This document shows positions 4,031-5,153 of a stretch of 64,000 nt of DNA, in pieces; position 1 is the first letter of the stretch; each line of letters opens with the position of its first letter. A program made the translations under genes and the position numbers. The notes below the pieces were generated by a model. The model ran no database searches and had not been told where the DNA came from. It was given only the letters and a program-made list of their open reading frames with translations. This DNA is from Methanomassiliicoccus luminyensis B10 (GTDB lineage Archaea; Thermoplasmatota; Thermoplasmata; Methanomassiliicoccales; Methanomassiliicoccaceae): assembly GCF_000308215.1 (NCBI RefSeq), contig NZ_CAJE01000024.1, positions 1 through 64,000 of the forward strand. The letters are read 5' to 3'.

Positions 4031-4064
4031 AAAAAATAAAAAGGTTTGTAGGGGCTCAGCCCCT
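4031..4064 (-). terminator. Intra-operon hairpin and T-tract after the binding-protein gene
   Basis: On the minus strand the sequence AGGGGC-TGA-GCCCCT (4064-4050) forms a perfect 6-bp stem whose loop is the TGA stop codon itself, followed by a T-rich run over 4042-4031. This should partly terminate transcription after the binding-protein gene. The T-rich run could also supply a TATA element for the permease. Confidence 0.6.
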
Positions 4065-5153
4065 CACGAGATCGTATCCATACTTGTCCGCAATGGCTAC
4101 CAGGAGAAGGTACTGGATGGAAGACGATCCTGGCTGACCTATGACGAGGCCGTCCAGGTCTTCGATACTCCTATCCCCGCTGATCACCAGTGCGGACCCC
4201 TCGGTGTTGGCCAGGGACAATATCTTGACGTCGATGCCCTGGTTGGCGTGGTTCAGGAGGACCGGAGGAGCGCCGAGGTAGGCCATATCTATGAGGTTCT
4301 CGCTGCTAGCGAAGGCCGTCATGACCGCGCCGCCATTGTTATACCCTCCAACGGTCGCACCATCAGGCAGGGCGGTCTGTATGCCATATGTCGCGAACAG
4401 GCTCTTGCCGCCTCCTACCTCGATGTTCTCGGCCACCACTCTGGCGAACTGGTGAAGGTCGCCCTGAAGGTAGCCGATACGAACGGTGATGGGGGTGAAG
4501 CCATCATCCACCGGCTGGATGTTGGCTGCAGCCTCGAGATGGGTAGCATCAATAAGGCCGTTCACGAAGCTGTTGACATCGGAAACCCTGTTGCTCTGTA
4601 TGAGGCCAGCGTCCACATAGTCCTCGGTGAACTGCTTGAAGTAGGCCACACTCTCTGAGGTGATGTTGTAGGTGAGCTTCATGTGCTGCAGCGAGCTGTC
4701 CACGACCTCGGTGCTTCGGCCGCTGAAGCTGGCTCCGATCTGCAGCAGTAGAGTGTAGTTGGTTGGATTGGTTTCCTTGTTGGCTATGGCGTCGGCAATC
4801 CAGAGATTCGCTTCGATATGCGCCTTCAGGACCCTATTGACAGCGTCCGGGTTGGAGTTCAGGAAGTCGCCGTCAGCCACCACGACACAGCATGGATGGT
4901 CCGGCCAGATATCACCGGACCACACTAGGGCATGGGCGGTGCCGGCCAAGATGGAGTCCGACACGTAGGGCTCCCAGCTGACCCCGCCATCAATGTTGCC
5001 CGACTGGATCTGAGCTTGCTGATCCACTGGCGCGACATCGGTGTACTTGATGGTCTTGCCGCCTAAGTTGACCGCTCCAGACAAGAATAAGCCAGCAACG
5101 ACCAATGCCGCGACCACGACCACGGCTGCTACGGCTATGTATTTTCTTTGCAT
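4056..5153 (-). CDS. ABC substrate-binding protein, apparently circularly permuted (SsuA/TauA/NMT1 type)
   Basis: 365-residue exported binding protein. Residues 1-30 are a hydrophobic signal or anchor segment. What follows is out of the usual order. Residues about 33-215 match the second half of SsuA-type proteins (APVDQQAQIQSGNIDG, SWEPY, then DIWPDHPCCVVVADGDFL). Residues about 220-365 match the first half (VRIGYLQGD, MTAFASSENLIDMAYLGAPP, LANTEGSALVISGD). The C-terminal GYDLVRG would join naturally to the mature N-terminal GKTIKYTDVAP. Each half occurs once, so this is a permutation, not a fused tandem copy. It is the first gene of the importer operon. The likely ligand class is an alkyl-sulfonate, nitrate or similar anion. 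Confidence 0.85.
   Translation of the reverse strand: MQRKYIAVAAVVVVAALVVAGLFLSGAVNLGGKTIKYTDVAPVDQQAQIQSGNIDGGVSWEPYVSDSILAGTAHALVWSGDIWPDHPCCVVVADGDFLNSNPDAVNRVLKAHIEANLWIADAIANKETNPTNYTLLLQIGASFSGRSTEVVDSSLQHMKLTYNITSESVAYFKQFTEDYVDAGLIQSNRVSDVNSFVNGLIDATHLEAAANIQPVDDGFTPITVRIGYLQGDLHQFARVVAENIEVGGGKSLFATYGIQTALPDGATVGGYNNGGAVMTAFASSENLIDMAYLGAPPVLLNHANQGIDVKILSLANTEGSALVISGDRSIEDLDGLVIGQPGSSSIQYLLLVAIADKYGYDLVRG

Follow-up and report, generated by a model that had tools for sequence, protein, structure and literature searches.

The substrate-binding protein (SBP) encoded at positions 4056 to 5153 of the window, by which we mean the whole 64,000-nucleotide stretch of Methanomassiliicoccus luminyensis B10 DNA analysed, is very likely a true circular permutant of a type II SBP, cut at the hinge between its two lobes. 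It is also very likely that repeated cuts, made at loops or at the hinge, have rotated the chain in the family to which it belongs, while the N-terminal anchor was kept. We place the probability of these two statements taken jointly at about 0.88; no structure data are available.

Segment order of the window protein

The gene lies on the minus strand (ATG at 5153, stop at 4056) and encodes a protein of 365 amino acids of the NMT1/SsuA type; all of its segments are given here on that strand. Residues 1−31 (5061−5153) form an N-terminal membrane anchor, a hydrophobic helix without a lipobox, which AlphaFold2 (AF2) predicts as a helix from 5 to 24 with low pLDDT over residues 1−30. Segment A (residues 33−116; 4806−5057) is the core of lobe 2, usually found in the C-terminal half, and was assigned by its match to positions 151−245 of NMT1_2 and by a segment HMM. 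Within it, in a loop ahead of a lobe 2 strand, is the signature WPDHPCC (W83−C89; 4887−4907), which is also present in the canonical bacterial relatives L034−L038. Segment T (residues 117−208; 4530−4805) contains the C-terminal helices of the unpermuted protein (segment HMM; AF2 helices 130−210), and is followed by a linker between the ancestral C and N termini (residues 209−221; 4491−4529) that matches the ends of canonical relatives L052−L054. Segment b1 (residues 222−305; 4239−4490; segment HMM) is the start of the usually N-terminal lobe; its end, at about residue 306, corresponds to the P2 cut site seen in L051 and in family f2. The remainder of that lobe, segment b2 (residues 306−365; 4059−4238), ends at the P1 cut, in the hinge strand ...GYDLVRG. 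The order is thus anchor, A, T, linker, b1, b2, which we call P1, and canonical relatives have b1-b2-A-T.

Profile searches gave the same picture. Both PF13379 (NMT1_2) and TIGR01728 matched the native protein in two stretches whose profile order was reversed, the best being residues 32−126 on profile positions 151−245 and residues 26−120 on positions 126−217, respectively. No collinear NMT1_2 match was found for the native protein; when residues 221−365 were set in silico ahead of residues 33−220, the NMT1_2 and TIGR01728 matches each became a single collinear stretch. The rotation raised the scores from 76.1 to 83.2 bits for NMT1_2 (both above its gathering score of 24.7 bits), from 73 to 82 bits for TIGR01728, from 32.8 to 42.2 bits for TIGR01729, and from 24.1 to 31.5 bits for SaoX. 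The join that it creates, GYDLVRG followed by GKTIKYTDVAP, matches a strand that runs unbroken in canonical relatives, such as ...NLTETDLKTIVVKPPEM of Desulfosarcina L036. The criterion for circular permutation, namely A-T-b1-b2 against b1-b2-A-T in homologues of similar length with full coverage of both, is met.

A first-pass annotation, made from the sequence alone, had proposed an ORF at 4056−5153 with swapped lobes, an end GYDLVRG that would read into GKTIKYTDVAP, and a complete cognate permease and ATPase. The position held exactly. The swapped order held as well, as judged by the reversed profile stretches, the collinearity after rotation, and the relatives described below; the strand is continuous in canonical relatives, and both partner genes are intact. 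That annotation had suggested aligning the two halves separately, folding the protein computationally, and looking for the same order in related genomes. Each half proved to be 38−49% identical to canonical L052 and L053 (39 and 44% to L052, 38 and 49% to L053), a confident AF2 model was obtained (pLDDT 86.7), and the same order was found in 69 distinct ORFs; therefore, chance and misassembly are excluded as its source. Misassembly near residue 215, named in advance as a possible refutation, did not materialize, since the order is conserved over the junction at approximately 209−221.

Predicted structures

AF2 models were made only for the window protein and for a control, L036, a canonical bacterial relative that carries WPDHPCC. 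The window model, built on an alignment of window-derived and related-locus proteins, had a mean pLDDT of 86.7 and a pTM of 0.83, with low confidence in the anchor only, and the control had a pLDDT of 91.7. The predicted elements agree in order: window strands from residue 222 on correspond to L036 strands from residue 25 on, and window strand 33−39 corresponds to L036 strand 156−160. Both the permuted and the canonical model are therefore confident and show the expected order of elements, as judged without an order-independent superposition.

In a Foldseek search of the PDB, the window model had a single match below 1e-3, OpuAC (3chg; 6e-4, TM 0.35), whereas the L036 model matched SsuA, TauA, NrtA, and CmpA with E values of 1e-15 to 1e-19 and TM scores of 0.72−0.83. 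This contrast of weak and strong matches is what permutation predicts with a sequential aligner. Because Foldseek depends on sequence order, it is of little use for ranking the matches of a permuted model.

Operon context and function

The SBP gene, a cognate ABC permease gene (3190−4008, minus strand; BPD_transp_1), and a cognate ABC ATPase gene (2438−3208, minus strand) form an intact operon on one strand. With a neighbouring permease and ATPase and a hydrophobic N terminus, the protein meets the genomic criterion for an SBP subunit. From operon context and fold we infer that it serves a NitT/TauT-type importer as its SBP; there are no binding or transport data. The P1 protein would be expected to fold as the usual two-lobed trap and hand its ligand to the permease, powered by the ATPase, and both the folding and the transport function are inferred.

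A divergent HTH regulator gene, ArsR/IclR-like (5378−5824, plus strand), adjoins the SBP gene in both P1 and canonical loci. On the other side, an HTH_3 regulator gene (1913−2434, plus strand) is convergent with the operon in the window and is divergent beside the SBP gene at many other archaeal loci of both P1 and canonical type. This regulator has an uncharacterised C-terminal domain and is linked to the ABC operon across several archaeal groups. Past the operon lie genes for a thioredoxin reductase-like protein (996−1913, plus strand) and a thioredoxin (556−939), both kept as neighbours in part of the order. An Rfam scan of window positions 1−12000 revealed no riboswitch or other known RNA upstream.

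None of the specific names considered could be assigned. The scores for SsuA (TIGR01728; 73 bits native, 82 rotated) and TauA (TIGR01729; 32.8 and 42.2 bits) are under the curated cutoffs of 163.5 and 304, respectively. The nearest named models are SaoP and TauC for the permease, both under their cutoffs, and SaoA for the ATPase, yet SaoX, SaoP, and SaoA scored 24.1, 135.9, and 286.8 bits, and their curated cutoffs of 300, 295, and 360 were unmet. A coenzyme M or sulfonate importer was considered on the basis of the host order; a Methanomassiliicoccales genome paper (PMC4153887) makes no such assignment for the transporter in its relevant passages and reports coenzyme M biosynthesis genes in the three genomes that it compares, so the idea remains a guess.

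The adjacent cysteines C88 and C89 in WPDHPCC belong to a motif common to canonical bacterial relatives in the Chloroflexota and Desulfobacterota. They hint weakly at a thiol or thiophilic ligand, and a ligand-binding or redox role is possible, but the ligand is unidentified; the suggestion of an organosulfur compound or of a thiophilic metal(loid) species is guesswork without binding data. The complete dyad is missing in the divergent P1 copies L048 and L050 and in L141. The genome of the window organism also has a second SBP (G000:C12:94081-94890; L169), which is collinear with the canonical order and 29% identical to canonical L053.

Start points among the relatives

Relatives were surveyed with blastp and with segment HMMs (A, T, b1, b2) on ORFs from related genomes. 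Five start points were found in the family: canonical, P1, P2, P3, and P4. The 69 distinct ORFs with the P1 order A-T-b1-b2 come from several archaeal groups, namely most families of the window's order, other Thermoplasmatota, and the phylum of the Archaeoglobi MAG L033; named P1 relatives L031 and L032 are from Methanomassiliicoccus sp. and Methanomassiliicoccales MAGs. The canonical order b1-b2-A-T also occurs in the window's own order (L052, L053, L054), elsewhere in its phylum (L076), and in several loci of the phylum Halobacteriota (L138−L140, L142, L143, L175). The bacterial loci examined were canonical, and the matches in a Desulfobacterota survey were collinear with a canonical query.

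The P2 order b2-A-T-b1 was present in 53 ORFs of family f2. P3, in seven genomes, starts inside segment A just ahead of the ...HxCC strand and ends ...IIWEAQYSVGLA or ...IIWEPQFQRVIQES. P4 was seen only in L141, where the protein starts at GIKTIADLKGKK; its sister L140, 70−84% identical, is canonical. Two earlier assignments were discarded: L068 had been taken for P1 because b2 was missed, and a family-specific HMM assigns it to P2; L073 and L141 had been lumped with P1 and P2, and their sequences have distinct cut sites. From sequence comparison, we infer that every cut falls either at the hinge strand or in a loop of the window model.

The permuted genes are under purifying selection. Ratios of dN to dS between neighbours (Nei-Gojobori) were approximately 0.07−0.34, with dN/dS values of 0.27/1.77 for L001/L002, 0.039/0.57 for L003/L004, 0.13/0.90 for L216/L218, and 0.23/0.67 for L073/L212. 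The permuted orders and their conservation are shown.

Some copies have unusual architectures. In L048 (1−2700) and L050 (1172−3937), P1 SBPs are fused to fibronectin-III-like and NosD-like repeats, domains recognized by eye, in proteins of more than 900 amino acids. They have no nearby permease and lack the HPCC dyad, and might possibly be repurposed surface receptors. In another family of the class (G282), the last approximately 50 residues of the P1 SBP L088 (836−2017) look frameshifted.

Phylogeny and gene neighbourhood

SBP trees were built on sequences rotated to one common order, and they require seven to eight changes of order. Approximately unbiased (AU) tests rejected a single clade for all P1 rows (p=6e-9) and for all canonical rows (p=1e-64), and did not reject one clade for the f2 P2 rows plus L073 (p=0.45). 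In a separate f2 tree, a single P3 origin was rejected (p=3e-6), so that P3 arose at least twice. Domain order defined the AU groups, but the tree was already known when the tests were carried out. Recurrence on the trees is shown; the direction of some changes is inferred, and weak support for the deep branches of the SBP tree leaves it uncertain which way the oldest changes between canonical and P1 went.

A tree of permease plus ATPase placed P2 in one clade, sister to P1 L047 and inside the P1 part (100/100, 13-row clade), and thereby united P2, whereas the SBP tree set L051 apart from the other P2 rows. In the permease plus ATPase tree, P3 L073 fell inside P2, and L052−L054 fell within the window's order. 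Canonical L052−L054 and the P1 genes occupy the same slot, in a series of genes for Elp3, the HTH regulator, SBP, permease, ATPase, HTH_3, and thioredoxin reductase. Occurrence of both orders at one locus is shown; as part of the joint best explanation, a P1/canonical shift in place is very likely, rather than transfer of the whole operon.

The canonical protein L251 (G919; 1423−2640) groups with the second P3 group at 100/99, is 68% identical to its P3 neighbour L220, and has P2 surroundings. The simplest reading is a return to the canonical order, although this comes from one genome only, a fragmented MAG. Canonical L251 and P4 (L141) thus each rest on a single genome.

Tandem fusions and a proposed route

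Four ORFs of 766−793 amino acids each contain two complete P2 bodies in tandem: L064 (2385−4754), L101 (466−2844), L225 (775−3072), and L226 (772−3081), all in family f2 and upstream of a permease gene. The two copies within L064 are approximately 85% identical. Relatives with tandem full-length lobes had been named in the first-pass annotation as evidence that would expose a truncated fusion; such tandems do exist, but they duplicate the P2 form, not the window protein, and do not point to a truncated fusion. They make up a clade of their own, which is not immediately sister to either of the P3 clades. Among the relatives surveyed, all tandem fusions were of the P2 type, and none was P1 or canonical. 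P2, P3, and the re-canonical L251 have recognisably similar N-terminal anchors within f2 (MDKKIxAV..VAI..A...). The existence of tandems and the retention of the anchor in f2 are shown.

Permutation by duplication predicts tandem full-length intermediates (PMC3320104). In the route we propose, the SBP body would be duplicated in tandem and in frame, the first part of copy 1 would be lost directly behind the anchor, and copy 2 would then be truncated, so that the N-terminal anchor is kept while the body rotates. Because the tandems are P2-type only and not direct sisters of the P3 clades, this duplication-deletion route is inferred by analogy.

Alternative explanations

An assembly or binning artefact, in which halves of two tandem SBP genes had been mis-joined, is all but excluded. 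Many of the genomes are multi-contig drafts, and in L013 an ambiguous base splits the frame; against this stand the P1 order in its 69 distinct ORFs, the evidence for purifying selection, the occurrence of P2, P3, and tandem forms in the single-contig genomes G041, G051, and G055, and the absence of any N in the key loci. Under fission and fusion, each lobe would first have had its own gene, whether by a split or by descent from two different SBP genes, and the pieces would then have been joined the other way round. The literature treats this as the chief alternative origin of circular permutants (PMC3320104), and the P1 cut, at the hinge between the lobes, is in a place that would tolerate a split. 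We consider it unlikely. No separately encoded lobes were found in the genomes examined, the sole split ORF pair (L013) being traceable to an N; the window protein's two halves show similar identity to L052 and L053, as given above; half-genes would make little sense for P2, P3, and P4, whose cuts are within lobes; and there are tandem fusions.

A few ancient permutations might instead have spread by horizontal transfer, with whole genes replaced rather than rotated in place. In favour of transfer, canonical L052 (G005) and L053 and L054 (G027, G044) occur among P1 relatives and branch close to the order's base in the SBP tree, and Thermoplasmatota rows interleave with another phylum (L103). 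However, L052−L054 keep their flanking genes, and their permeases and ATPases fall within the order; the nesting of canonical L251 beside P3 L220, the close sisterhood of P4 L141 and canonical L140, and the similarity of anchors across orders inside f2 also argue against it, and transfer as the main explanation seems improbable. Whether the permutations are neutral is a separate matter, compatible with the reading that the family was re-cut behind a retained anchor. If the termini are close and only the N-terminal anchor is needed, order could simply drift; operon, permease, and ATPase are unchanged between orders, and order has changed back and forth. Against neutrality, P1 has persisted for a long evolutionary time in several groups of archaea, and the position of the anchor relative to the lobes has been proposed as a reason for permutation in Treponema MglB-2 (PMC4990184). 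We see no clear advantage to either side.

Discussion

Single permutations of SBPs are already known, and the recurrent series is the interesting part of these results. OpuAC, the glycine betaine SBP of Bacillus subtilis and the top Foldseek match of the window model, is itself a permutant: CPSARST reported OpuAC and ProX as type II SBPs related by natural circular permutation (PMC2395249). OpuAC belongs to another SBP family (about 10% identity); the OpuAC/ProX paper compares distant proteins (<24% identity), whereas in the window family close homologues at one locus show both orders. Treponema pallidum Tp0684/MglB-2 is a natural permuted, membrane-anchored SBP that binds its ligand, and its authors propose an anchoring rationale (PMC4990184). 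MglB-2 is a sugar SBP of type I with a single permuted order, and its permuted part is poorly conserved; the window family is type II and has several cuts. SsuA, TauA, NrtA, and CmpA share the fold and the Pfam family NMT1_2, and L036 superposes well on them, but all are canonical, and the window protein is under the SsuA and TauA cutoffs.

For the Sec-assisted organometallic (SAO) systems, SaoA and SaoP are the nearest NCBIfam models for the ATPase and permease and SaoX is a weak one for the SBP, all under cutoff. A review lists SAO SBPs with Cys-Sec or Sec motifs (PMC13188914), which recall the CC dyad of the window protein, although its order is permuted; no SaoB, SaoC, SaoL, or SaoT was identified among the neighbours examined. 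DNA methyltransferases are the standard case of permutation by duplication with documented intermediates (PMC3320104). They are another class of protein; the present family, of a transporter subunit, adds tandems, several starts, and a return to the ancestral order. In the open literature searched (subscription papers excluded), we found nothing on permuted SBPs in these archaea, nor on an SBP family permuted repeatedly. The statement of the first-pass annotation that natural permutations are uncommon holds for SBPs in general; within this family, permutation is recurrent.

A bolder reading, which we consider likely, is that of a "rolling" family: behind the N-terminal anchor, the two-lobed body would have been cut anew about seven times or more, using four new sites and including reversions to the ancestral order. 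The cuts would be P1 in two or more separate groups, P2, P3 (twice, at one and the same loop), and P4, with tandem intermediates still extant.

Circular permutants are usually single, ancient, one-way cases, so their origin and reversibility are hard to study. Here, rotation separates close homologues (68−84% identical), tandems are still extant, and one loop was cut on two independent occasions. It thus becomes possible to test directly the duplication route, how well cut sites are tolerated, and how the position of the anchor affects docking of the SBP to the permease. Profile-based annotation will show such proteins as two partial matches or as truncated genes, and the natural permutation sites might be copied for SBP-based sensors. 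If the bolder reading is true, the rolling family would be a natural experiment in which permutation of a transporter subunit is frequent, stepwise, and reversible.
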